IMG/VR virus record: IMGVR_UViG_3300032675_000039
Coordinates: 1 to 46,768 of that record
Strand: one strand, 5' to 3'
DNA length: 46,768 nt
Source of the DNA: a virus
Part shown: one piece after another, positions 34,440-45,870 of the stretch
Layout: the number at the start of each line of letters is the position of its first letter
Numbering within the stretch: the stretch's first letter is position 1
Translations under genes and position numbers: made by a program
The notes under the pieces: model-generated
Seen by the model: the letters and a program-made list of their open reading frames with translations, nothing else
The model's database searches: none
Told to the model about the DNA's origin: nothing

Positions 34440-34457
34440 GTTGAAATTATAGCTCAT
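34440..34457 (-). promoter_or_regulatory. Promoter-like element TGAGCTATAATTTCAAC
   Basis: On the minus strand, ATGAGCTATAATTTCAACAT follows the stop of the GIY-YIG gene; TATAAT is at 34451-34446. The 17-base core recurs at 39757 and in shorter form at 5311. It would start a separate transcript for the hypothetical, Sak4-like and SSB-like genes, which would otherwise be cut off by the mobile gene. A good -35 is not apparent. Confidence 0.45.
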
Positions 34458-35136
34458 TATTTAAAACCTTACCAGAATGTCCAGTTTTCTTTTGATGTTT
34501 GCCAATCATCATTGCGATATGAGAATATCCGCATTCTGAACAAGTATATTTTCTCATAACCATTAAACTTTTACCGTCAAGATTCTTTTCTGAATGCAGT
34601 TTTGCCATCGTTGCTTTACCCACTTTGATCATTCTAATACTTTTACCGCGTTCATCTCGTTCTAAATGGGAAGCAGATCCGATCATCTTTGCAAAAATAC
34701 TTTTACCATCAGAATCTTTAGTCATATGTCTTAATTCACATGACACTTTACCTGCTTTTTTACAATCTTCAAGAATTTTTTCTTTACTTCTACCGTGAAC
34801 TCCTATTTTGCTATCATGAGTTAATTTTCCAATTTTTCTACTGTTCAATTCACCTTCATTATTGTGACAATTGTAAGATCTTTCATCTTTTCTAGCATTT
34901 AACTTTTTCAGAGTAAAAGTTTCAAATTCTATCACTTCATCAGGATAACCTATGAAAAGAATACTTATTGTGAATCTATTTGGATTTTCTCTAAACATAT
35001 TCCTAACAATTTTGCTAGAAGTAAAATAAGAAGTTCCTATATGGCTTGGATTTGAATTTTTCTTATAATTTGAACCTATATAGTACTTTCCATTTATTTT
35101 GTCTTCTAATTTGTAAACGTAACAATTCGGATTCAT
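34447..35136 (-). CDS. GIY-YIG-type homing endonuclease with C-terminal zinc finger
   Basis: The first ~95 residues show a diverged GIY-YIG domain: CYVYKLEDKINGKYYIGSN, then FTSSKIVRNMF and IEFETFTLKKL with a likely catalytic Glu. The middle has basic repeats spaced like small DNA-binding modules (KSIFAKMIGSASHLERDERG). The C-terminus YTCSECGYSHIAMMIGKHQ followed by KKTGHSG looks like a C2H2-type finger. It overlaps the end of the DNA polymerase gene by 4 bases (ATGA), a favoured insertion site for such mobile genes. Confidence 0.85.
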   Translation of the reverse strand: MNPNCYVYKLEDKINGKYYIGSNYKKNSNPSHIGTSYFTSSKIVRNMFRENPNRFTISILFIGYPDEVIEFETFTLKKLNARKDERSYNCHNNEGELNSRKIGKLTHDSKIGVHGRSKEKILEDCKKAGKVSCELRHMTKDSDGKSIFAKMIGSASHLERDERGKSIRMIKVGKATMAKLHSEKNLDGKSLMVMRKYTCSECGYSHIAMMIGKHQKKTGHSGKVLNNEL

Positions 35137-36968
35137 TTTGATGCCTTTTTTGATTTTATACCCCTTGACAACAATGCTTTTTCTAATAAATCTTTGTCAA
35201 GCCATTCACCGCAACCGCAGTTGTTAGCAATTATAACTGATTCGTAAAGATACCATTCATAATCCAAATCTTCTGGATGTTTATTAGGATCTTCTATTTT
35301 CATGCAGGCTCTAGCCCCGTCAGTTTTTGGAACTTTATTACCGTTTTCCTTGTATCTCAATGGTTGAAAATTTTTGTCTTTAGTTTGGTACCATCTGACC
35401 GTTTTTCCTAAATATTTACCATTTTGTTCTCCTCCGCCAGTTACATTTCTAGCAGAAATAAAATCTAAAAATAATGAATTCTTTATAGTTTCCATCATTG
35501 GAGCGCCTCTAGACAACCATAATCCAAATGCTTTTGAAGCTACTTGTGCAGTTGGATTTTTATTTAAACTTAAAGGCGCATATATCCCTTTTACTTTTAA
35601 TGACCTGTCTTGTTTTACCGCAAAATATGAATTTACGTCTTTGAGTGCAACAGCTCTATACGGCGTATCCTCAAATATAAAGCCAGTCAAGTCGCTAAAC
35701 TCTTTTACAATGTTGTGAACTTTTGTGACCTCGTTACGCCTATGCTTGAGCATGATTCCGTCGGTATTGGCTGAAACAACTTGAATACCATTGTCCTCTA
35801 AAGTCTCAATTAAGTTTAAAAGAGTAAGCTGACCCGTCAGAGTAATATTAATCATAACGTCGGGAGAATACAGTGCTGAATACTTACTAGCTGTTTTACC
35901 GAATGTTCCGTTCAATGCAATCCGCAATGAATCTGCAATTACCATGTTCTTTTGACGTTTACCTTCTAATCGTCTCTCGAACACTTTGCGATACTCATCA
36001 ATAAAGGTTGTACCAGTGTTAACAGGTATGAGATTGCAATTAAGCAAAATGCTAGGATAATAACTAGAAACATCATAATCAACAATTTGATAATCATCAT
36101 CAGTAACATGGCAAACCTTTCTATCGTGTTGTGAATGAAGACCTCCAACGCCCATCTGATATATACCATTGTTTATCGTTACGAGGTCTTCCTTCAGAAA
36201 GGCAGGTAACTCTACGTGCCCCGTTGACTGCTTAACTTCATATACGTGCTCTGACATCCTTCTTGTTAATTCAATAAGGTCAGCGCGTTTAAAGTTAATA
36301 AAATGTGGAACTATATACCGCACGCTCTCAGGAATTTTTGCATTTGAACGCTTTAACTTGAGCCGCTTGATAAACATCTGCTCAGCTACTTGAGAGTCAG
36401 ATTTAGAACGAGCATCAAAACCATACTCCTTACTAATTTCAACTCTAAGCTGGAGTTGCCCTTGCAGCTTGTTATAAAGCGTCTCTGTAGTATCTAAGTC
36501 GTTCTTGCAGTAATCCCAAACCATTGGTCGGGCAGACTCATCAATCTCCTGCGAATGATGAAACGGCAGGTCTTGAATGAGCGGCATGTGCATACGTGCG
36601 CCGTAAGTCTTTAGGCTCACAAAGCTGGGCGCGACCTCAATCAAATCAATGTGGTCAATCATAGGGATCTTGAACCTGAATTGCTTTTCAGCATCCCAAG
36701 GCATCAAGTTATCCCCGATGATTCTATCTCCCAGCTTTTTACATTCTAATTCTGATTTACCCGCTATAAAATAACTAATAACGGGCATATCATACTTTGA
36801 ACCATTAAAACTAATGAATGTATTTTTTGATTTGAAAAGAGACTTGACGCGCTCACGAGCGTCTTCATCATCTCCCCAGATACCGAAGTATTCTCCGCTC
36901 TCAAGAATCTTACCCATTAATAGAAACATGTTTGGGGCAACTTCAGTATCAAAAACAATAGTCCCCAT
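35133..36968 (-). CDS. DNA polymerase, family B, with 3'-5' exonuclease
   Basis: The 611-residue enzyme has exonuclease motifs VFDTEVAPN (Asp7, Glu9), FNGSKYDMP (Asn55, Asp60) and WDYCKNDLDT (Tyr153, Asp157). The polymerase motifs are A: YDVSSYYPSIL (Asp299), B: RIALNGTFGKTAS (Asn353) and C: VSANTDGIML (Asp403). In motif C the usual D-T-D reads N-T-D; the essential second Asp is kept. The enzyme is small for family B, without an evident protein-priming insertion. It is the replicative polymerase. No helicase or primase is seen in the window. Start overlaps the preceding stop by one base (TAATG). Confidence 0.88.
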   Translation of the reverse strand: MGTIVFDTEVAPNMFLLMGKILESGEYFGIWGDDEDARERVKSLFKSKNTFISFNGSKYDMPVISYFIAGKSELECKKLGDRIIGDNLMPWDAEKQFRFKIPMIDHIDLIEVAPSFVSLKTYGARMHMPLIQDLPFHHSQEIDESARPMVWDYCKNDLDTTETLYNKLQGQLQLRVEISKEYGFDARSKSDSQVAEQMFIKRLKLKRSNAKIPESVRYIVPHFINFKRADLIELTRRMSEHVYEVKQSTGHVELPAFLKEDLVTINNGIYQMGVGGLHSQHDRKVCHVTDDDYQIVDYDVSSYYPSILLNCNLIPVNTGTTFIDEYRKVFERRLEGKRQKNMVIADSLRIALNGTFGKTASKYSALYSPDVMINITLTGQLTLLNLIETLEDNGIQVVSANTDGIMLKHRRNEVTKVHNIVKEFSDLTGFIFEDTPYRAVALKDVNSYFAVKQDRSLKVKGIYAPLSLNKNPTAQVASKAFGLWLSRGAPMMETIKNSLFLDFISARNVTGGGEQNGKYLGKTVRWYQTKDKNFQPLRYKENGNKVPKTDGARACMKIEDPNKHPEDLDYEWYLYESVIIANNCGCGEWLDKDLLEKALLSRGIKSKKASK

Positions 36969-37294
36969 TAATCTTGGTTTACATAGCGTTCTGTTGGACC
37001 GCCGTCAAGAGCCTGCACGGGATACTCTAACTCTTTTAGCTTTTCAATAAAGTGAATTGCTTTCTCTAAGTCTTCCCGTCCGTTCTTGAGGTGAAACCGC
37101 TCAAGATACTTAGTAGCGCAACCTACAAAATAACCTCTACCGTATAGACGATAGATTCTATCCCAGTGCTGCTCCCCGTCAACTTTATAATGCTTACCAC
37201 CTACCTGCTTATTATTTGCGCTCATGATTTCCTTATAAGTTTTACGAATATCTTCTAAACTATCAATCCATTCTGAATGAGTCTTAGCTAGCAT
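36968..37294 (-). CDS. DUF3310-type protein
   Basis: The 108-residue protein contains KQVGGKHYKVDGEQHWD, GRGYFVGCATKYLERFHLK and EDLEKAIHFIEKLKE, the typical DUF3310 pattern found in many phages, sometimes annotated as nucleotide kinase-like without proof. A shorter start (MSANNKQVGG, 37225) has a better ribosome site (AAGGAAATC) and may be the real one. It sits between the thymidylate synthase homologue and DNA polymerase, which fits a role in nucleotide or replication metabolism. Confidence 0.75.
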   Translation of the reverse strand: MLAKTHSEWIDSLEDIRKTYKEIMSANNKQVGGKHYKVDGEQHWDRIYRLYGRGYFVGCATKYLERFHLKNGREDLEKAIHFIEKLKELEYPVQALDGGPTERYVNQD

Positions 37295-38264
37295 TTTTCT
37301 TCTCTCTGTTCATAATATAAATCTGAGTAGCTAACTTCCAGTCAGAGGCTGAAATCTTATCTGCCCAATATGAGCCATCGCTAATCTTATGCTTACGCTC
37401 ATATGCGACCATAGCCATTGGCTGCGCTACAAACTCAAAGAAGGGATTAACGAATCCACTTTTCTTGAATGGGTCATTGCAGAATGCCTCGCACTCAGTT
37501 AGGAATAGTTCCCAATCACCTTGATACAAAACACTAGGCTTGACTACTCCGTTTGAATACGCATCAAATACTTCACTGCTCGGCGGATTTTCTACATACG
37601 GCTGAGCGTTGTAGAGTTCAATATATAGATGCAGATTGTTACTCACCGTAAAGTATTGACCGACTGGCAGCTCAAGCGCAATCGCTACAAACTCTTGAAT
37701 CATAGAGAAGTGAACTGGATTCGCCCCGCAGTATCCCCACCAGAAATCATTACTCCTGTTGAAGATTGTCAAATCAACACATCCGTTCACAACAGCAAAT
37801 ACTAACTGCGTATTACAGGCTTTATCCTTTGTGCTTTTGTTGAAGTCAGATGCATCCCAGAGTTGAATAACCGCCTGACGGGAATTAGAATCAGTCTTGA
37901 GGTGCTTGATAACCTCTTTGAGTTGGTCAAATCCAAAGTGCTTACGCATCCTGTGTCCGTACGCCGCGTTGAATCTTACGCCGTCATCGCTGAATTGACC
38001 AATGGTAGAATTAAACTGCTTCAGGAACTCTACGTCATCACGTCCCGCGAGCATCCAGATTGATTCCATTAAGTGAAAGATTGGATTCGCGTCTCGTTCA
38101 GCAAAGAACAATACGCGCTCAGTCGGCTCGATGATTGTAGTCAGCACTGGTTCATCAATACGCAAAGCAGGACCATTACGAGTTTGAACCTTTACACCTG
38201 AGGTTTTAAAACGCCAGAGCATATCAGTAAATAATTCATTTACGTTGATAGAACGTATTTCCAT
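37284..38264 (-). CDS. Thymidylate synthase homologue, probable dUMP hydroxymethylase
   Basis: The 326-residue protein has the ThyA fold signatures: FHLMESIWMLAGRDDVEFL, FNAAYGHRMRKHFG, SRQAVIQLWDASD (phosphate-binding Arg), KACNTQLVF with the likely nucleophile Cys150, RSNDFWWGYCGANPVHFSM with Asn182 in the dUMP-discriminating place, and NNLHLYIEL. ThyA proper has CH after the Pro-Pro; here CN. In phages with hypermodified thymine, a homologue makes 5-hydroxymethyl-dUMP. The directly adjacent DNA kinase genes argue for that role, but plain dTMP synthesis remains possible. Confidence 0.8.
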   Translation of the reverse strand: MEIRSINVNELFTDMLWRFKTSGVKVQTRNGPALRIDEPVLTTIIEPTERVLFFAERDANPIFHLMESIWMLAGRDDVEFLKQFNSTIGQFSDDGVRFNAAYGHRMRKHFGFDQLKEVIKHLKTDSNSRQAVIQLWDASDFNKSTKDKACNTQLVFAVVNGCVDLTIFNRSNDFWWGYCGANPVHFSMIQEFVAIALELPVGQYFTVSNNLHLYIELYNAQPYVENPPSSEVFDAYSNGVVKPSVLYQGDWELFLTECEAFCNDPFKKSGFVNPFFEFVAQPMAMVAYERKHKISDGSYWADKISASDWKLATQIYIMNREKKNAS

Positions 38265-38277
38265 GTTATTTCCTTTA

Positions 38278-39141
38278 TTAAAATTCTGTTGTTGGTTTGT
38301 AATTCTGACGAGGCTTACCCTCTCCTTTTACTACTCTTTGATACTTATCAAACTCACACATGATGTTTTGACAATCATGCAGGGTTAAATCTTTTAATTT
38401 ATTATTTGAATCAATCAAGATTGAACGGATCTCTGTTAATTCCTGATTGAATCTTTCCTCAGTAAACTTTTTACTAATAGTGCGTTCATGCAACCTATTC
38501 AACCCACGCTGACTGCCTGGACCCATCGGTGCCCATGAATATAAATCTATAGCATTGTCAAGCTGCCCGCGTATGTACGTTAAATCTGAACTCACTTGCC
38601 CAGCTATAAAGGTTTGAATACCGAATGAAGTAGCTAACGCATTAGTAGTATGCTTGATTGAACCAGAAGCAATCGCCCCACGAATCTGCGGTGCAATCTT
38701 GATGATTGGCGCAATAATATACTCCGCGAGGTTTACAGACTTTGTGTTACCTTTGACCATCGTTGGGTAAACAATATAAGCAGAGCTATATACCTTTTCA
38801 CCTTTGGATTCTAGATGCTTCATCGCCTCAATAAACAAGTAAGGATTAAACTCCTCAGCGCGGCGGGGAATCACGAGGTTATCCATAAGGTAAAGCAGGG
38901 TCGGTGGCCAATTAATCAAACGAGCTAACAGGGCGCGGAACCATACGTCACCTTGAACATTCTTATAGTAATAAGTTAGGAGCCACTTACTTACCCTGTC
39001 ATCCCTACGACGCACATTACAGAACCGATACTTAGCGAGTATTGGATCAAGCGTATATGGCGGTAGAAATGATTTCTCCTTGTTTAGGCGTATTTGTTCT
39101 CGTTCATTAACAAACTCAACCAATTCATTAAAGAGTGCCAT
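38278..39141 (-). CDS. Helical domain protein of 5-hmdU DNA kinase (HMUDK_hel / aGPT-Pplase type)
   Basis: The 287-residue helical protein shows the family pattern PYTLDPILAKYRFCNV followed by RRRDDRVSKWLL (residues ~28-55), where the F-x-N-V-x-R-x-x-D-R-V core is characteristic of the helical domain fused to or partnered with thymine-DNA kinases. Further on come IRGAIASGSIKHTTNALA and WAPMGPGSQRGLNRL, a Gly-rich turn plus helix. It overlaps the P-loop kinase gene by 14 bases, so the two were probably one two-domain protein or act as a pair. It likely binds the modified base in DNA. Confidence 0.78.
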   Translation of the reverse strand: MALFNELVEFVNEREQIRLNKEKSFLPPYTLDPILAKYRFCNVRRRDDRVSKWLLTYYYKNVQGDVWFRALLARLINWPPTLLYLMDNLVIPRRAEEFNPYLFIEAMKHLESKGEKVYSSAYIVYPTMVKGNTKSVNLAEYIIAPIIKIAPQIRGAIASGSIKHTTNALATSFGIQTFIAGQVSSDLTYIRGQLDNAIDLYSWAPMGPGSQRGLNRLHERTISKKFTEERFNQELTEIRSILIDSNNKLKDLTLHDCQNIMCEFDKYQRVVKGEGKPRQNYKPTTEF

Positions 39142-39721
39142 TCTCTGCCTTTCTGATAACTTCTAGAGTGTCATTAAAGGCATCGGTGTGATCTATTGTA
39201 ATAATTTTTACTCCACCTGCATTATGCAAATTAACGCAAGCGTCATAAGTAGATTTATGTGCGCTTACAGTATTCGCTGGATTGAACGGCTTTGTTTCCC
39301 CACGGGCATCTCTACGCGCTTGCACTCTCTGTAGGCAAGTTGCGAGGGGCGTATCGAGGATAGCCGCGACGTATGAACCCGTTGGTTTAAGCATCTGTGT
39401 TGTGATTGCTCCTGGACCCACTTTTGAGAGTAACAAACCTTCAAGCAGAACATGACCCCTAGGATGAGCAGCCAAGGCTCGTTCTGCAATTTCCTCTTGA
39501 GTACTGATACCATCTGTACCTCCGCAAGTGTTTTCATAACTACCAATCACATAAAGCGGCTGAGTAATTCCTTGACTTGACAAATCAACATGATACCCCC
39601 AATGTTTCTTTTTACCGTTGGGGTCTATTATTGCTGAGCAGGGGTAATCTGTCAAAAACTTACGGGCTACAGTGGTCTTACCTGAGCCTGAAGTTCCGCG
39701 GAGTGATAGAATTACGTTCAT
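39128..39721 (-). CDS. P-loop 5-hydroxymethyl-dU DNA kinase
   Basis: The 197-residue kinase has Walker A LRGTSGSGKTT (residues 7-17), the family-specific stretch GSYENTCGGTDGI (60-72) with a Cys-Gly-Gly-x-Asp, GHVLLEGLLLSKVGPG (Walker B-like with acidic residue), and the Arg-rich lid QRVQARRDARGE. These match kinases that phosphorylate 5-hydroxymethyl-dU within phage DNA. It is followed by the helical partner with a 14-base overlap, and preceded by a promoter-like element at 39757. An AAAGGAAACAC ribosome site lies upstream. Confidence 0.82.
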   Translation of the reverse strand: MNVILSLRGTSGSGKTTVARKFLTDYPCSAIIDPNGKKKHWGYHVDLSSQGITQPLYVIGSYENTCGGTDGISTQEEIAERALAAHPRGHVLLEGLLLSKVGPGAITTQMLKPTGSYVAAILDTPLATCLQRVQARRDARGETKPFNPANTVSAHKSTYDACVNLHNAGGVKIITIDHTDAFNDTLEVIRKAENGTL

Positions 39722-39734
39722 GTGTTTCCTTTAT

Positions 39735-39760
39735 TCGGTTATTGAGTTGAAATTATAGCT
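39735..39760 (-). promoter_or_regulatory. Promoter-like element TTGAGCTATAATTTCAAC
   Basis: TATAAT lies at 39757-39752 on the minus strand, in TTGAGCTATAATTTCAACTC. The first TGA of it is the stop codon of the small gene upstream. The same 17-base core is found at 34451 and in part at 5311. It would transcribe the kinase, helical-domain, ThyA-like and polymerase genes. Confidence 0.5.
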
Positions 39761-39963
39761 CAATATTTTGCGGGCACTTCAAATGCGTGTTGTCTTTTCC
39801 ACATGTTACGTATTGTTTCAGGATATTTATTTAAGAGCCAATCTTGAAAAGCTGTCGCGGGGTTAATATTCAATAGAATCCCATCTTCATCTTTACATTG
39901 CATGAGGGCAATCACTAAGGCTTCTAATGACTGTTGACTGATATTCTTTTTATTTGATTTCAT
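39760..39963 (-). CDS. Small hypothetical protein before the DNA kinase
   Basis: The 67-residue protein (SQQSLEALVIALMQCKDEDG, then TAFQDWLLNKYPETIRNMW) is helical and starts with ATGA overlap to the ADDT-like gene. A possible small partner of the modification proteins, but no motif supports this. Confidence 0.6.
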   Translation of the reverse strand: MKSNKKNISQQSLEALVIALMQCKDEDGILLNINPATAFQDWLLNKYPETIRNMWKRQHAFEVPAKY

Positions 39964-40955
39964 TTGTTTTCCAGTATATGTTCAGCGCGGAATGGCACGC
40001 CAGTTTTAGCAAACATCTCAGCCTTTATTTTAAACGGTATTCTATCTTTTTCACACTCTTCTCTCAACCATTCAGGTAAATAATTTGCCCTTATTTCTTT
40101 AAAAGGTTCAGTATATTGACTCAGATTTCTTTTATCATACCATTCTATTCTTTGAAATCCAAGATCTGCATATACTCCTGGATACCGACGGCTAAAGAAT
40201 CCATTTTTGAATTGGCATAGGCATGACTCAAAAGTAAACCGACCGAGGTCAGGATTAGGCTTCATCACTCTAATAACTTCACTGGCTCTAGCTTCTAACC
40301 CTTTACACATATCTTCAAAATCATCATATTTTCCTGAATGTGAATTAGGTTGACGCTTGTCAAACACATAATTATCCATTCCTAGCAAAAACAACATACC
40401 GTTACGATGAGAGCGCGAGCCGTCAAAGTCATTAAACATCAACGTAGTGCAGTCTGCCCCGAACCCGTTAATTTTTACATACTCAAGGTAAGAGAAAGTA
40501 GAAAGTCGCCCAAAGCTAACAATGCTATTAGCCTTAGCCCATAGCGAGTCATAGTTAGCATCGCTCCAGAGCTTGACTTGAGAACCATGCTCTTTGACGA
40601 GTTGGGCATATGAGTAGAGACCTTTTAGAGTGTCTTTTTTCTGTTTATTACGGTCAGAATCAAAAGATAGAGTAGCCCAGTCATCATTGAACTTAATATG
40701 TGCTTTTTTCCATTCTTCATTACTCTCAGGAATTGCAGGAATAAACTCTAGAATCTTTAAACTAGTGATTGGGTTTTGAGTGTGCCCATTAAGCGTAGCA
40801 AACCAGAGAGCCTGCTCATCCGTCCAGCCATAATACTTTTTGAGCGCAGGCATGTAGAGATAAACTAATCCTGGATGTGCTTTGTATTCAAGGTTCATAG
40901 TGTACAACGCTTTGAAGTATTCAAGACGGTTCTCAGGTAATCTATAATCAGTCAT
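39960..40955 (-). CDS. Putative amino acid:DNA transferase (ADDT-like)
   Basis: The 331-residue mostly helical protein has RLEYFKALYTMNLEYKAHPG, YMPALKKYYGWTDEQALWFA (residues ~28-55), NGHTQNPITSLKILE, and near the end RTYP-like SRRYPGVYADLGFQRIEWYD. This helical architecture and the tryptophan-rich first part recall the ADDT/aGPT-Pplase proteins that replace the pyrophosphate on 5-hmdU in DNA by an amino acid. Its place two genes upstream of the DNA kinase supports this. The match is by pattern and neighbourhood; a profile search is needed to separate it from the HMUDK helical family. Confidence 0.62.
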   Translation of the reverse strand: MTDYRLPENRLEYFKALYTMNLEYKAHPGLVYLYMPALKKYYGWTDEQALWFATLNGHTQNPITSLKILEFIPAIPESNEEWKKAHIKFNDDWATLSFDSDRNKQKKDTLKGLYSYAQLVKEHGSQVKLWSDANYDSLWAKANSIVSFGRLSTFSYLEYVKINGFGADCTTLMFNDFDGSRSHRNGMLFLLGMDNYVFDKRQPNSHSGKYDDFEDMCKGLEARASEVIRVMKPNPDLGRFTFESCLCQFKNGFFSRRYPGVYADLGFQRIEWYDKRNLSQYTEPFKEIRANYLPEWLREECEKDRIPFKIKAEMFAKTGVPFRAEHILENK

Positions 40956-41026
40956 TTTCTATCCTTTGGCGGCTGCTTATTGTGAGTCGGGTAAACAGGC
41001 GATACAGGTTTAATTGGTTGTATCAT
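40952..41026 (-). CDS. Tiny coupled ORF before the ADDT-like gene
   Basis: A 24-codon frame, MIQPIKPVSPVYPTHNKQPP plus four residues, is joined by ATGA overlaps to the genes on both sides, so its main role may be to carry ribosomes across. It is Pro/Lys-rich. Whether the peptide itself matters is unknown. Confidence 0.45.
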   Translation of the reverse strand: MIQPIKPVSPVYPTHNKQPPKDRK

Positions 41027-41307
41027 TTAGCCACCCCCAGAACTGGCATTAAAGGTAAAGTGGGTAAAGCGGTAGGCATAGGTAACGGAGCAGGCATAGG
41101 CACGCTGGGAATAATAAATCCAACGGGTTGCCCATACTGGTTCAGAACGACCTGAGAGTTACCGATAGGCATAACTGAACCCACGCTCTGACCGAACTGA
41201 TTCAGATACTGCATCGCTCCTTGAACATTGTTCTGAGCGTAGCAGCTTGAATTACCTGAGAGATAACCAATCGTAAAAAAGATTATCATAAATAAAAAGT
41301 TCTTCAT
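41023..41307 (-). CDS. Small exported protein with a repeated LNQxGQxVG motif
   Basis: The 94-residue protein starts with a typical signal sequence (FLFMIIFFTIGYLSG, cleavage likely after SSCYAQ). The mature part has YLNQFGQSVGSVMP and VLNQYGQPVGFIIPS, two copies of one motif, then a Pro/Leu/Met-rich tail (PMPAPLPMPTALPTLP). It therefore leaves the cytoplasm. A role in the envelope, such as superinfection exclusion, is possible but unproven. 4-base overlaps on both sides. Confidence 0.65.
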   Translation of the reverse strand: MKNFLFMIIFFTIGYLSGNSSCYAQNNVQGAMQYLNQFGQSVGSVMPIGNSQVVLNQYGQPVGFIIPSVPMPAPLPMPTALPTLPLMPVLGVAK

Positions 41308-41549
41308 AATGCCTCTACGTTTCTCTTTATCATTTTGAAAGTTTCATCGTAAGTAAACTCTACAATATGATCCATAAAGTTCTCCACGTCCCTATCACTA
41401 AAAACATAAACCCATGCGGCAATCGGTATTTCTTCTGGATTCCTGTCTTCAAATTTCTGGTCCACCTTCAATTGAATTCGTAGCGCGTATTTATCCATTA
41501 AATCATTAAAGTCCATACGCCTACGAATTGATTCTGGTTTTAGCTTCAT
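41304..41549 (-). CDS. Small acidic hypothetical protein
   Basis: The 81-residue protein (SIRRRMDFNDLMDKYALRIQ, DRNPEEIPIAAWVYVFSDRD, FTYDETFKMIKRNVEAL) has mixed helices and strands. It is coupled to the exported protein downstream. No family is recognised. Confidence 0.6.
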   Translation of the reverse strand: MKLKPESIRRRMDFNDLMDKYALRIQLKVDQKFEDRNPEEIPIAAWVYVFSDRDVENFMDHIVEFTYDETFKMIKRNVEAL

Positions 41550-41557
41550 AGCTGCTC

Positions 41558-41824
41558 CTAGATATGTTGGCTAGGAATGCGGTTACGGATCTCCTCAGCA
41601 ACAGTGTTGAAGTTACCGTCCATGAGGTCAATAGACCACTTATCACAAATCTTTGCGCACTCTTCACGCTCAATAACTACGGCGTATTTTGTAGCTTCAA
41701 TTGCATGAACGATGAGTTCAGCTTTTGCCTCGGCTAGTGCGTCATCAAACTCGCGTTGCGTAAAAAGCGTTCCTCCAGTACCTTTAGCAAAGAATGATTT
41801 CTGGAAATCAGATTGTTCTGACAT
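41558..41824 (-). CDS. Small conserved phage protein
   Basis: The 88-residue protein reads EFDDALAEAKAELIVHAIEA, VIEREECAKICDKW and EIRNRIPSQHI at the end. The E-R-E-x-C-A-x-[IV]-C pattern near the C-terminus occurs in many small phage proteins of unknown function. It overlaps the HNH gene by 17 bases. Function unknown. Confidence 0.62.
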   Translation of the reverse strand: MSEQSDFQKSFFAKGTGGTLFTQREFDDALAEAKAELIVHAIEATKYAVVIEREECAKICDKWSIDLMDGNFNTVAEEIRNRIPSQHI

Positions 41825-42398
41825 GTAATTCTCCTAAATTGTATTGATAATTAAATGCAAATTGTTTAACAACTTCTTGGACTTTATATTTACGCCCATA
41901 CATAGGATGATTCTCACCTGCGTATTTTCCTTTTCTTGATTTTGATAAACGCTGTTTATGTTGCTCAGATTTTGGAAAACGAAATTTAATTAAAGTTTCT
42001 TCAGAATGTTTTTTACCATACATCGGATGTCTGTCACCAGTTGTTAATTTATTCATTTCCGAGCGTTTGGGATTCTTTTTACCAAACATTGGATGTTTAC
42101 TACCTGTTTGAGCTTCTGAAAATTTTATTCTAGCCACTTGATATAAACGAGAATTAACATAAGCGTTATTTGAACCTTTCATGCAAATAACAGCTCTCCA
42201 TGCTAATCCTCCATGAATCTTTGCTAACAAATAATGAGCAATAAAATGTTCTCTAGCTGTTAAATCAACTAAATTGGAATTATCATTAGAACCGCCTAAA
42301 GATTTAGGAATTATGTGATGACGTTCTTTATATCCGTCAATTGAATCACGTAGTTTGGCATTATCAATTAACAAAGTGTAAATTTTTTGATAGTTCAT
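41808..42398 (-). CDS. HNH homing endonuclease with NUMOD3-type repeats
   Basis: The N-terminal ~60 residues carry the HNH motif: YKERHHIIPKSLGGSNDN (His27-His28), SNLVDLTAREHF (Asn42, His51) and HYLLAKIHGG (His55). The C-terminal half has DNA-binding units (GSKHPMFGKKNPKRSE, DRHPMYGKKHSEETLIK, NHPMYGRKYKVQEVVKQ). The gene overlaps both neighbours by 4 and 17 bases, so it has settled without breaking coupling. Probably mobile and free-standing. Confidence 0.9.
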   Translation of the reverse strand: MNYQKIYTLLIDNAKLRDSIDGYKERHHIIPKSLGGSNDNSNLVDLTAREHFIAHYLLAKIHGGLAWRAVICMKGSNNAYVNSRLYQVARIKFSEAQTGSKHPMFGKKNPKRSEMNKLTTGDRHPMYGKKHSEETLIKFRFPKSEQHKQRLSKSRKGKYAGENHPMYGRKYKVQEVVKQFAFNYQYNLGELHVRTI

Positions 42399-42613
42399 TT
42401 TAATAATTTTCGCTCAATAAATACTGCAATTTCAAGTGGTGTTGCGTGTTGATTGTGTTGCACGATTGAAGCGGCGATCATAGCTGCTTGACGCCATCCT
42501 TCATCAAAACAGGCTTTTGGGTCATTGAGCATATCTTTTGCATTGGCTCGTTCAAGTAGCTTGACCCAATCGTCATAAGACTGTTCCCAATTCATAATAG
42601 ACTTATCAGACAT
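42395..42613 (-). CDS. Small conserved phage protein
   Basis: The 72-residue protein (YDDWVKLLERANAKDMLNDP, ACFDEGWRQAAMIAASIVQH, AVFIERKLLK) is helical; the A-x-F-D-E-G-W-x-Q-A pattern is widespread in small phage proteins of unknown role. It overlaps the HNH gene by 4 bases. Confidence 0.6.
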   Translation of the reverse strand: MSDKSIMNWEQSYDDWVKLLERANAKDMLNDPKACFDEGWRQAAMIAASIVQHNQHATPLEIAVFIERKLLK

Positions 42614-42732
42614 AATATTATTCCTATAGTAATTTTAAACACAACGTAAATAAAACTCAAGCCCACAATACCTATGCAAATCGCGCCAATCACCTGCCAC
42701 TTACTCGGCAGGTCAAGATATTTGTTTCGCAT
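42592..42732 (-). CDS. Small membrane protein
   Basis: I chose ATG 42732 (MRNKYLDLPSKWQVIGAICI), which overlaps the upstream small gene's stop as TGATG; the longer frame has no good site. The 46-residue product has a long hydrophobic stretch, VIGAICIGIVGLSFIYVVF and IGIILCLISLL, i.e. one or two membrane spans. It could be an early membrane-active protein, but nothing more can be said. Confidence 0.6.
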   Translation of the reverse strand: MRNKYLDLPSKWQVIGAICIGIVGLSFIYVVFKITIGIILCLISLL

Positions 42733-42812
42733 CAAAACCCCCAGCCGAACATGCAACCTAGTATTATGCCGAGGATGATGACGCCAATCCATTCCCATTT
42801 ATAGTTTGTCAT
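42732..42812 (-). CDS. Tiny membrane peptide
   Basis: A 26-codon frame starts at 42812 and reads MTNYKWEWIGVIILGIILGC plus a short tail. It is a single membrane helix, with overlaps to both neighbours (14 bases upstream, TGATG downstream). Conserved coupling suggests it is translated. Confidence 0.5.
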   Translation of the reverse strand: MTNYKWEWIGVIILGIILGCMFGWGF

Positions 42813-43062
42813 ATATTTTCTCCATGATTAAGTCGCGGTCTGGTTCTACTTCCTCTTCTACTTTTGATACGGGTTCTTCATATTCCTCTAGGTCATCAAC
42901 GTCAGGATCATATTCGCCTTCTAGCTTGATCTTAAAATCTGCTACCTGCAATCTATACAACGAAGGAATAGAGCGGAACTCATCAATGCGGTGTTGCATG
43001 GGGTGCGGCTTAAGAATATAGTTCTTAAAGTCCGCGAGTCTTTCAAATGTAATTTTCTTCAT
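42799..43062 (-). CDS. Small acidic hypothetical protein
   Basis: I chose ATG 43062 (MKKITFERLADFKNYILKPH) because GGAGGGG lies 8 bases upstream; the longer frame starts with TTG. The 87-residue protein ends in a strongly acidic tail (DPDVDDLEEYEEPVSKVEEE). The tail could mimic DNA or bind a basic partner. No family is recognised. Confidence 0.6.
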   Translation of the reverse strand: MKKITFERLADFKNYILKPHPMQHRIDEFRSIPSLYRLQVADFKIKLEGEYDPDVDDLEEYEEPVSKVEEEVEPDRDLIMEKIYDKL

Positions 43063-43064
43063 GC

Positions 43065-43286
43065 TTATCCCCTCCAAGATTCTTGAGCTTGTTTATCAAA
43101 TTTATCAAAGTTAAGCGCATGAATCATTTCCCATACGCTGATTTCTGTGTCAGCGATGCAGACGTCCTCAATATCAATTCCGCCTACGTGACCTACGCTG
43201 GGTTCATCTTTGTCAACGTAGCCGTACACGTCTAGCAACGTATCACCGCAATACATAGACATTAAAAAGTTAGATGCTTTAGCCAT
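43065..43286 (-). CDS. Small hypothetical protein
   Basis: The 73-residue protein (NFLMSMYCGDTLLDVYGYVD, HVGGIDIEDVCIADTEISVW, ALNFDKFDKQAQESW) has beta-strands then a helix. The leader AATAAAGGAAATAACAATG matches those of many genes on this strand. No function is recognised. Confidence 0.6.
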   Translation of the reverse strand: MAKASNFLMSMYCGDTLLDVYGYVDKDEPSVGHVGGIDIEDVCIADTEISVWEMIHALNFDKFDKQAQESWRG

Positions 43287-43297
43287 TGTTATTTCCT

Positions 43298-43402
43298 TTA
43301 TTTAGTTATCAAAAATAAAACGTAAGACGGGATGCTGATAAATACGACTGCGTAAAACCAAAGTATAGCTGGAAAAAATAAAAGTGTAAAGATTAATTTC
43401 AC
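43298..43402 (-). CDS. Small membrane peptide, GTG start
   Basis: GTG 43402 overlaps the upstream stop (GTGA) and opens a 34-codon frame, MKLIFTLLFFPAILWFYAVV and FISIPSYVLFLITK, almost entirely hydrophobic. It fills a gap of about 110 bases that otherwise has no gene. A membrane peptide of unknown function. Confidence 0.5.
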   Translation of the reverse strand: MKLIFTLLFFPAILWFYAVVFISIPSYVLFLITK

Positions 43403-43584
43403 GCGGGGATTTCTCCGTTCCAACTTTTGATGCGCACTACGTCCAACTTGAGGGCGGGCGCGTCACGAATGATCCAAGCCGCCTGATTAATAGTAACTGG
43501 CTTTGTAAAGGCTCTCCAGTCATTGAGATAGTCATCAAACTTGATTACGATGTATTCTTTTTTACCTTGACCTGCGTATTTCAT
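43399..43584 (-). CDS. Small basic hypothetical protein
   Basis: I chose ATG 43584 (MKYAGQGKKEYIVIKFDDYL), since the longer start falls inside a GC-rich hairpin. The 61-residue product continues FTKPVTINQAAWIIRDAPAL and VVRIKSWNGEIPA. Strands and one helix are predicted. The upstream hairpin may regulate it. Confidence 0.6.
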   Translation of the reverse strand: MKYAGQGKKEYIVIKFDDYLNDWRAFTKPVTINQAAWIIRDAPALKLDVVRIKSWNGEIPA

Positions 43585-43588
43585 AATG

Positions 43589-43604
43589 TGCCCCCGAAGG
43601 GGCA
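43589..43604 (-). other. GC-rich hairpin just ahead of a start codon
   Basis: TGCCCC, a TTCG loop and GGGGCA (minus-strand reading) make a perfect 6-pair stem ending 4 bases before ATG 43584, so it covers the place of the ribosome site. It can act as a terminator fragment of the plus strand (TCCTTTCTT follows on that side) or as a translational control hairpin. Confidence 0.5.
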
Positions 43605-43611
43605 TCCTTTC

Positions 43612-43926
43612 TTATCTAGCGGTTACACGAATGGCGATTGAAGCAGTGGACTTGTAATACTTTTGCAATTGCTCAATAGTAATACCGAGGTCAGCAACCA
43701 TCTGTTTATAATCATACGTAGAACGCTGAGACAGGGTCACCGTAGCTTTATAAAGGTCACCCTCATAAGTGCCCTCACCAGCGTTCTTGAATACGTCTTT
43801 GAGCTGCTCAATCTGCTCATTGAGTTCAGCTGCCTGAGCCTGCAATAAGCCAAGGCGGTCAAGATCCTGCATCTGAGCAGATTGGCTGAGTGCTTGATTA
43901 ACTAATTTAGTAGAGATAGAGTTCAT
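43612..43926 (-). CDS. Small coiled-coil protein
   Basis: The 104-residue protein has a helical coiled coil at residues ~15-50 (QMQDLDRLGLLQAQAAELNE, QIEQLKDVFKNAGEG) and a folded C-terminus with TVTLSQRSTYDYKQMVADLG, ending in a basic helix. The leader AATAAAGGAAATACAAATG precedes it. It probably works as a dimer; function unknown. Confidence 0.65.
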   Translation of the reverse strand: MNSISTKLVNQALSQSAQMQDLDRLGLLQAQAAELNEQIEQLKDVFKNAGEGTYEGDLYKATVTLSQRSTYDYKQMVADLGITIEQLQKYYKSTASIAIRVTAR

Positions 43927-43949
43927 TTGTATTTCCTTTATTAAGTTTA

Positions 43950-44549
43950 TTAAACTGCTTTTGGTCGTTGAATCAAAGTTTGTTTTACACCATTACGAGT
44001 ACCATGCTCCTTCACTGTCGCCTTGAGAGTTACTGTTTCACCCTCTGCAAGGTTCCATACTGCATCGCAACCACCTTTGTAGATGATTACGTTTTTGTTG
44101 GCATCTTCAAAAATAAAGATACCGATTGGACCGAAGTTAGTATCAATGTTGATTACTTTCTTCAAGACCAAAGTTAAAACAATTTTATCACCGATGATGC
44201 CGACATATTCACGAGCAGCGTCGATAGCTGCCTGTTTATCAGCCCACTCTGCCTTGCGGGCATCGCGCTGGATGATGCACTTACGAACTGCTGCTACTTG
44301 CTTCTCGGTTAATTTACCGTATGTGTCATACGCAGAGGCAACTGAACCAACAAAGCCGTCTTTATAAATCTTACGCTCATGAGCGTCAATCTCATAACCT
44401 TGAGACAGGAACGCTTCAATTTCAGCATAGTCAGGATAATTACGGCTGAAAGTCTTTTTAGCGTTGGTAATAATATTTCTAGAAATTGCCTCTCCATAAG
44501 CAGCTGGATTTTCAATTTCAGGACCAATGTGGAATAAACGTGAAGTCAT
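43950..44549 (-). CDS. Conserved phage protein with a C-terminal beta-barrel
   Basis: The 199-residue protein has a helical N-terminus with KTFSRNYPDYAEIEAFLSQG and YDTYGKLTEKQVAAVRKCII (a motif Y-G-x-L-[TS]-x-x-Q...R frequent in phage proteins), then ARKAEWADKQAAIDAAREYV. Residues ~115-195 form strands (DKIVLTLVLKKVINIDTNFG, FIFEDANKNVIIYKGG, ETVTLKATVKEHGTRNG), like a small OB-type barrel. A nucleic-acid-binding role is plausible. The same leader type precedes it. Confidence 0.65.
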   Translation of the reverse strand: MTSRLFHIGPEIENPAAYGEAISRNIITNAKKTFSRNYPDYAEIEAFLSQGYEIDAHERKIYKDGFVGSVASAYDTYGKLTEKQVAAVRKCIIQRDARKAEWADKQAAIDAAREYVGIIGDKIVLTLVLKKVINIDTNFGPIGIFIFEDANKNVIIYKGGCDAVWNLAEGETVTLKATVKEHGTRNGVKQTLIQRPKAV

Positions 44550-44572
44550 TTGTATTTCCTTTATTTAGATTA

Positions 44573-44806
44573 TTAAACTTCTACTGCACCATGCAAGCCA
44601 TTGACAACTTCATCACAATAACCTGCTGCTTCTTCTAACTGCTGAATTGCTTCTTCTGCTTTTTCACCGCGCTCAGAAGATTGCAAACCTTCTGGCATGT
44701 TGTCAAAAGATTCTTGTTCAGCCTCGAGTATACCATTGATTTCAGATTGTAAGTCTTCAACTTGAGCAATTAAAGACTGGATTTGTTTTCTACGTTCTGC
44801 GTTCAT
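44573..44806 (-). CDS. Small coiled-coil protein
   Basis: I chose ATG 44806 (MNAERRKQIQSLIAQVEDLQ), which has the leader AATAAAGGAAATACAAATG; the longer frame would run through a promoter-like site. The 77-residue product is a helical hairpin (RGEKAEEAIQQLEEAAGYCD). Such proteins are common, without known role, in early regions of environmental phages. Confidence 0.65.
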   Translation of the reverse strand: MNAERRKQIQSLIAQVEDLQSEINGILEAEQESFDNMPEGLQSSERGEKAEEAIQQLEEAAGYCDEVVNGLHGAVEV

Positions 44807-44861
44807 TTGTATTTCCTTTATTTGGGTTATTAATTTACTATCCTGTGAAGCTATGTAAAAA

Positions 44862-44890
44862 ACTATAGCATAGAAATTTATAAAAGGCAA
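44862..44890 (-). promoter_or_regulatory. Sigma-70-like promoter with extended -10
   Basis: TTGCCT (44890-44885) and TATAGT (44867-44862) are 17 bases apart, and the -10 is preceded by TGC (extended -10). It lies in the 107-base gap between the PLP enzyme gene and the first gene of the following operon, so the genes from 44806 down can be expressed on their own. Confidence 0.55.
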
Positions 44891-44913
44891 CAATTATTTT
44901 TGAGTGAAAACCC

Positions 44914-45870
44914 TTAGTTAGAAAAAGGATGCGTAAAATGAGGCGTAATTACGCTTAACTTCGGCTCCGACCCTATAATCCAAAAAAGTGCGCTGTCATC
45001 AAAGTCCATCCCTTGTTGAGTTAAATATCGCCAAACTTTTGCCTCGTACGTGGGATGAAACTTGATTCCGTCATAAGATTCACCATTAAATTTATCAGTA
45101 TATTTTGAGTAGCCCGTGTCATGCAAGGAATGATGCTTCCACCTGAACGGCAATGCGTCAAGATTGATACCCATAATCTCTGCGCGTTCCCGAATCCATT
45201 GGGCTTTACTGGGTCCAATACCGACGGTAAATAATGTTTCAATGTTGTGCGCATCTCTTGAAAGCCCAAGGAGTATACTGCAGAGTGAATTGCATGAACC
45301 AGCGGGTACAATTAAAGTCTTGACCTCATCCGGAATGTTCCTCGTCTGATTAGCCCCGACGTCATGAAAGCCCATCAAGTCTTCAGGGTGTTCTCTATGG
45401 TCAACGGTAATGCCATAGTTAACTACTAGGGAGTCAGAGCGGGTAAGGTCACCTACCATGCGCTGTAACACTGGGTTGTACGGTGCTGCGGCATACTCAA
45501 ACTGCGTACCGAACCCCCTAGCAATACGCGGGTTGTCATGGCGCAATACAGTGTCAGGCTTTGAGTACACAACCATGCGGGAAGGTAAACCAAGGTGCGC
45601 GCCCACAATAGCGGACATTGAAAGTTGCGGACTTTGAATTGACGCACCAGTGAGTACGTGCGTCTTACCTTTTCGGTTCTTTGTCATGTAATAAATTAAC
45701 TGGCGCAACTTACTCCCGTTCGGTCCACCGTAACCGAGCGTATTGAAGTAGTCCTCCCGCTTGAACCACATGCCTTTGTGATTCTCAACGGGAGTGAGAT
45801 CCATTAAGTGATCCTCCCACTTGATTACACTGCGGTCAAGAGTGTGGGTAGGAATGATTGATTGGCTCAT
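44914..45870 (-). CDS. PLP-dependent enzyme of the tryptophan synthase beta fold
   Basis: The 318-residue protein resembles ACC deaminase / D-cysteine desulfhydrase-like enzymes: MWFKREDYFNTLGYGGPNGS with the likely PLP-binding lysine K54 in SKLRQL, GKTHVLTGASIQSPQLSMSA, a phosphate-binding loop VPAGSCNSLCSILLGL, and GIDPE-like VGIGPSKAQWIRERAEIMG. In phages with hypermodified thymine, PLP enzymes act on the amino acid attached to DNA. Here the other pathway genes lie 4-8 kb away on the same strand, supporting such a role. A free amino-acid substrate is also possible. Confidence 0.8.
   Translation of the reverse strand: MSQSIIPTHTLDRSVIKWEDHLMDLTPVENHKGMWFKREDYFNTLGYGGPNGSKLRQLIYYMTKNRKGKTHVLTGASIQSPQLSMSAIVGAHLGLPSRMVVYSKPDTVLRHDNPRIARGFGTQFEYAAAPYNPVLQRMVGDLTRSDSLVVNYGITVDHREHPEDLMGFHDVGANQTRNIPDEVKTLIVPAGSCNSLCSILLGLSRDAHNIETLFTVGIGPSKAQWIRERAEIMGINLDALPFRWKHHSLHDTGYSKYTDKFNGESYDGIKFHPTYEAKVWRYLTQQGMDFDDSALFWIIGSEPKLSVITPHFTHPFSN

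Follow-up and report, generated by a model that had tools for sequence, protein, structure and literature searches.

Which modified base would a phage make that carries, on a single strand, a thymidylate synthase (TS) homologue, the two components of a 5-hydroxymethyl-dU (5-hmdU) DNA kinase, an amino acid:DNA transferase (ADDT) and a PLP enzyme? We addressed this question for a viral DNA of 46,768 bases, here called the window, in which an earlier note had proposed a complete pathway for thymidine hypermodification. All five open reading frames (ORFs) named there were located on the minus strand with unchanged coordinates, and each matched Pfam or PHROG profiles of its family. Gene identities and family membership are thus directly established, the single-strand set of five genes is borne out, and the families found strongly support a hypermodification pathway derived from 5-hmdU. 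We consider it likely that this pathway is of the ViI/CBA120 type and ends in 5-(2-aminoethoxy)methyl-dU (5-NeOmdU) or a close analogue.

Four of the five genes form a compact, partly overlapping operon in the order ADDT, kinase, helical partner and TS. The kinase gene and that of its helical partner share 14 nt, and a 67-aa ORF (39760-39963, minus strand), which has no match in PHROGs and a weak Pfam match to DnaA_N (E = 0.039), overlaps the end of the ADDT gene by 4 nt. TS is followed on the same strand by a DUF3310 protein (36968-37294; PF11753, E = 8.8e-6), whose position between TS and polymerase is kept in relatives, and by the phage DNA polymerase (35133-36968; phrog_1252, E = 2.3e-160). 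In the window, the PLP gene is separated from the operon and sits 4 kb upstream of it; the gap of 3,958 bp contains an HNH endonuclease and small ORFs. Neither promoter-like sites (41, where shuffles averaged 33.4 with sd 5.7) nor terminator-like sites (8 compared to 8.6 in shuffles) were clearly above the shuffled sequences, and megablast of the region against phages returned only a 39-bp match. The HNH homing endonuclease in the interval (41808-42398) has a similar counterpart near ADDT in some relatives and none in others. A further homing-endonuclease-like ORF (34447-35136) directly follows the polymerase gene; blastn aligned nothing of the close relative G015 to positions 34458-35382 of the window, and the polymerase C-termini of the two differ.

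The TS homologue (37284-38264, minus strand; PF00303, E = 3.7e-19; phrog_5131, E = 9.6e-103) comprises 326 aa. It shares about 41% identity with its counterparts in M6-group Pseudomonas phages, some of which bear the annotation deoxyuridylate hydroxymethyltransferase. Its closest solved relative by sequence is the CMP 5-hydroxymethylase 5b6d. Both the catalytic C150 and the dUMP-type N182, an Asn that in thymidylate synthases goes with uracil specificity, are invariant across a 15-row alignment, and with family, catalytic Cys and uracil-type Asn all found, we predict from the sequence that the protein acts as a dUMP 5-hydroxymethylase.

The earlier note had described the protein encoded at 38278-39141 (minus strand) as HMUDK/aGPT-type. 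Only the first half of this assignment holds: the protein belongs to HMUDK_hel (PF18723, E = 2.7e-41; 142.2 bits compared to a curated cut-off of 25), the helical partner of the 5-hmdU DNA kinase, and HMUDK_hel is not a transferase family. M6 gp55 found it with phmmer at E = 4.3e-34, and a sequence search of the PDB gave a single match at E = 0.71. The P-loop protein encoded next to it (39128-39721, minus strand), the predicted kinase subunit, was matched by phrog_800 (E = 9e-16) and by M6 gp54 (phmmer, E = 1.1e-10), and had no match in a PDB sequence search. Its PF18748 (HMUDK_HMUD1) score of 25.0 bits (E = 1.6e-5) lies below the cut-off of 27 bits; the same profile matches 22 of 30 kinase relatives at E <= 0.001. 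On the phrog_800 profile, the CBA120 kinase aligns at positions 4-220 and the CBA120 helical protein at 376-472, and these separate stretches suggest that some phrog_800 members may be fusions. Kinase and helical protein probably work as one enzyme.

For the protein encoded at 39960-40955 (minus strand), an ADDT-like function had been proposed, and family and fold agree with this. Its PF18724 score of 45.8 bits (E = 7.9e-12) exceeds the curated cut-off of 26.2, and it falls into phrog_3271 (E = 1.7e-49), the family of CBA120 orf248. The AF2 model (pLDDT 94.6) has the PaMx11 gp46 5-PmdU glycinyltransferase (8z2m/8z2n) as its top three PDB matches in Foldseek (probability 1.00), with TMq values of 0.53-0.56 (0.55-0.56 for the two best chains) and E-values of 9.4e-3 to 1.6e-2; a DNA glycosylase follows at E = 1.2. 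Since no fold match reached E = 0.001, the support comes from agreeing rank, probability and TM-score rather than from the E-value. The profile searches suggested beforehand placed the two helical proteins of the locus inside the HMUDK_hel and ADDT families, respectively. An E-[ST]-x(1-3)-C motif was found in six ADDTs compared, a PDB sequence search with ADDT gave no match, and genome contigs scanned with the ADDT alignment yielded no relative. Top-scoring ADDT matches belong to mycobacteriophages, and identity to the listed Ackermannviridae-type matches is only 28-30%, so that amino-acid specificity may differ.

Two loci illustrate other surroundings of ADDT. In Mycobacterium phage Bane1 (L082, 806-3483), the ADDT homologue gp3 lies between the genes for a queuine tRNA-ribosyltransferase and an annotated terminase small subunit, and the TS, kinase, helical and PLP profiles were unmatched in the 14 kb examined; this proximity to a queuine-transferase gene means that the ADDT family alone leaves the substrate unfixed. 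Locus L050 (6562-9580) combines genes for a Tet_JBP oxygenase, an ADDT and a Ploopntkinase3 protein, with TS, kinase and helical profiles unmatched, and possibly uses an oxygenase-based route to 5-hmdU that feeds ADDT.

The PLP enzyme (44914-45870, minus strand) belongs to phrog_3650 (E = 7.9e-79), the family of CBA120 orf228, and is about 32-37% identical to the listed matches of the Ackermannviridae type (ViI/CBA120). Its AF2 model (pLDDT 89.8) is closest to D-cysteine desulfhydrase (E = 9.6e-14, TM 0.65) and ACC deaminase. The lysine of a GSK motif is kept in nine of nine alignment rows (window, three loci, a Vibrio phage, CBA120, Montesquieu, AlanGrant and M6) and is, by homology, the putative Schiff-base residue; a GSCNS loop is likewise conserved. 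Modelled fold and candidate lysine together point to a fold-type-II enzyme, for which we predict decarboxylation of a DNA-linked amino acid. In Mycobacterium phage AlanGrant (L087, 1406-3152), a PLP homologue (gp2) is followed at a distance of two genes by gp4, which is P-loop kinase-like; the ADDT profile was unmatched in the 9 kb examined.

Does the gene set resemble a known system? We compared it with regions of CBA120, M6, PaMx11, Montesquieu, Bane1 and a Rhodoferax phage. All five window-family profiles matched E. coli phage CBA120 (TS 1.6e-55, kinase 2.7e-11, helical 1.1e-19, ADDT 1e-36, PLP 3.4e-82), compared to three of five in the regions of M6 and PaMx11 examined, namely those for TS, kinase and the helical protein. 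The genome arrangement differs: in the 157-kb CBA120 genome, TS and kinase are adjacent and the other three genes far apart, whereas the window holds four in one operon, and its ADDT and PLP enzyme are the diverged proteins described above. Passages of PMC11721090 report 5-NeOmdU in the DNA of CBA120 and Vi01, and according to passages of PMC6449724, ViI DNA contains 43% 5-NeOmdU and 7% 5-hmdU. The lack of a radical SAM enzyme and of an acetyltransferase had earlier been read as a hint that the product could differ from those known. This suggestion finds no support: CBA120 has no match to either, and the ADDT and PLP enzyme of the window are of CBA120 families, not those of M6. Since the five enzyme families are common to both phages, the modified base is probably of a known type rather than new, and by family membership the set fits the ViI/CBA120 type.

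Pseudomonas phage M6, which makes 5-(2-aminoethyl)-dU (5-NedU), resembles the window in having homologues of TS, kinase and helical protein, arranged in the same order close to the polymerase. Its ADDT, like that of PaMx11, belongs to phrog_6364, and its PLP enzyme, which matches phrog_3650 only weakly, to phrog_7093; as phmmer queries, both M6 proteins found nothing in the window. Of five records tested, M6 alone had a radical SAM match and PaMx11 alone one to acetyltransferase. Radical SAM profiles matched neither the window nor the 58.4-kb relative G015, and phmmer with the M6 radical SAM enzyme, the PaMx11 FAD enzyme and the PaMx11 acetyltransferase found no homologue in either. We therefore rejected an M6-type pathway, for which radical SAM and ADDT/PLP of the M6 families would be expected. 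A PaMx11-type product was rejected as well: TS, kinase and helical homologues are shared and the ADDT model matches gp46, but the ADDT family differs, the annotated FAD enzyme and acetyltransferase genes of this Pseudomonas phage have no homologues in the window, and the PLP profile was unmatched in the PaMx11 region examined. Glutamicibacter phage Montesquieu (47.6 kb) has ADDT, PLP, TS and helical homologues; its TS ORF, annotated thymidylate synthase/pyrimidine hydroxymethylase, is 1,551 nt long (516 aa, compared to 326 aa in the window), and the window kinase profile was unmatched in the region examined.

To see how widely the arrangement is kept, we scanned IMG/VR, which yielded 62 loci with ADDT relatives and 112 candidate stretches with PLP relatives, of which the best 80 were kept. 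ADDT identity ranged from 100% down to about 51%. The order ADDT, kinase, helical, TS, DUF3310 and polymerase was present in most ADDT loci long enough to contain it (exceptions: L050-L052), and its recurrence in dozens of loci argues that the gene set is not due to chance. Where a PLP locus (from the best 80 of 112) extends at least 5 kb further downstream, which applies to 59 loci, 58 carried ADDT, 57 kinase, 52 helical and 49 TS; in 11 loci the set of four partner genes was incomplete, several of them ending before the later genes. The PLP-to-ADDT gap has a median of 179 bp over 71 loci, compared to the 3,958 bp in the window. A 12.9-kb locus (L113) has a PLP homologue and matched none of the other four profiles.

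Presence of the PLP gene varies among ADDT-bearing phages. G002 (54,034 bp) and G004 (54,769 bp) keep ADDT and have no PLP match in their records. The group scored as PLP-lacking comprised L035, L044, L045, L049, L050, L059 and L063, whose entire records show no PLP match, together with L038 and L039, placed by kinship, and Bane1, of which 14 kb were examined. On a quick ADDT tree, the two groups gave a count of five changes, of which starred branches force at least three; when six PLP-lacking loci were used, a second count came to four. Upstream of ADDT, three PLP-lacking loci carry similar copies of an ORF of about 180 aa (L041, 9046-9582; L044, 8830-9363; L045, 8664-9203), which by eye resembles phage pyrimidine-dimer glycosylases; the L041 copy has no Pfam match.

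From these data we infer substrates, step order, amino acid and product as follows. The TS homologue would supply 5-hydroxymethyl-dUMP, which would replace some of the T in phage DNA. Kinase and helical partner would then phosphorylate 5-hmdU in DNA to 5-phosphomethyl-dU, and ADDT would exchange the phosphate for an amino acid, most likely serine, attached via its hydroxyl. Decarboxylation of the DNA-linked amino acid by the PLP enzyme would yield 5-NeOmdU or a close analogue. For ViI, Lee et al. (2022) reportedly identified serine as the donor and the PLP enzyme as a decarboxylase.

But must the donor be serine? The low identity of the window ADDT to the listed Ackermannviridae-type matches, the very long branch of the CBA120 ADDT in the tree and the occurrence of relatives with and without PLP, which suggests product diversity, would all suit the same pathway with another amino acid, giving an undescribed aminoalkyl or aminoalkoxy thymidine. 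We regard this as rather unlikely, as ADDT and PLP enzyme group with the CBA120 families and all five families are common to both phages. It is a tentative minority view that, more broadly, a distant ADDT adds a non-serine amino acid, which the PLP enzyme trims to an undescribed thymidine and which PLP-lacking relatives keep as an untrimmed amino-acyl base. Much less probable is that the pathway stops early or that the PLP enzyme performs another task, for example elimination or racemization, so that the DNA would retain either an uncleaved amino-acyl thymidine or unmodified 5-hmdU. The nearest folds, D-Cys desulfhydrase and ACC deaminase, and the two 54-kb relatives without a PLP match point in this direction; conservation of the GSK lysine and GSCNS loop, the tight linkage of PLP to ADDT (58/59 loci) and the 5-NeOmdU that passages of PMC11721090 report for CBA120, which has the same PLP family, speak against it. 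We give even less credit to attachment of glycine and its conversion to 5-NedU as in M6: the best matches of TS and kinase do lie in M6/PaMx11-group Pseudomonas phages, where the helical protein also matches strongly, and the operon is arranged next to the polymerase much as in M6, but radical SAM was found in neither the window nor G015, and the M6 ADDT and PLP, which belong to other PHROGs, match nothing in the window.

With 5-NeOmdU or a close analogue as the likely product, the modified base may hide restriction sites, and by analogy with PMC6449724 a role against restriction is plausible.

The window lacks roughly 11 kb found in the closely related 58.4-kb contig G015. The portal protein of the window phage has matches in a Manatee Spring contig (56%), in Caulobacter phage RW (49%), in Roseobacter phages and in HTVC023P; identity to the portals of HTVC023P/HTVC027P is 28-32%. 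The five profiles had no match in the examined parts of MW202545, RW, HTVC023P (38.9 kb) and CRP-902, so the gene set is not general among structural relatives. For HTVC023P-type pelagiphages, passages of PMC9599517 report TS and aG/PT-PPlase1 in clades V, VIII and IX and also name a 5'-deoxynucleotidase and a glucosyltransferase; PLP does not occur in that paper, and the word kinase occurs twice. The lineage of the window has many relatives in viral metagenomes, some of them presumably from freshwater, as we read their IMG sample numbers. Our analysis thus places a seemingly complete ViI/CBA120-type set, of which a single operon holds four genes, in a phage lineage of roughly 58 kb, and its ADDT-bearing relatives without a PLP match provide a natural test of the role of the PLP step.
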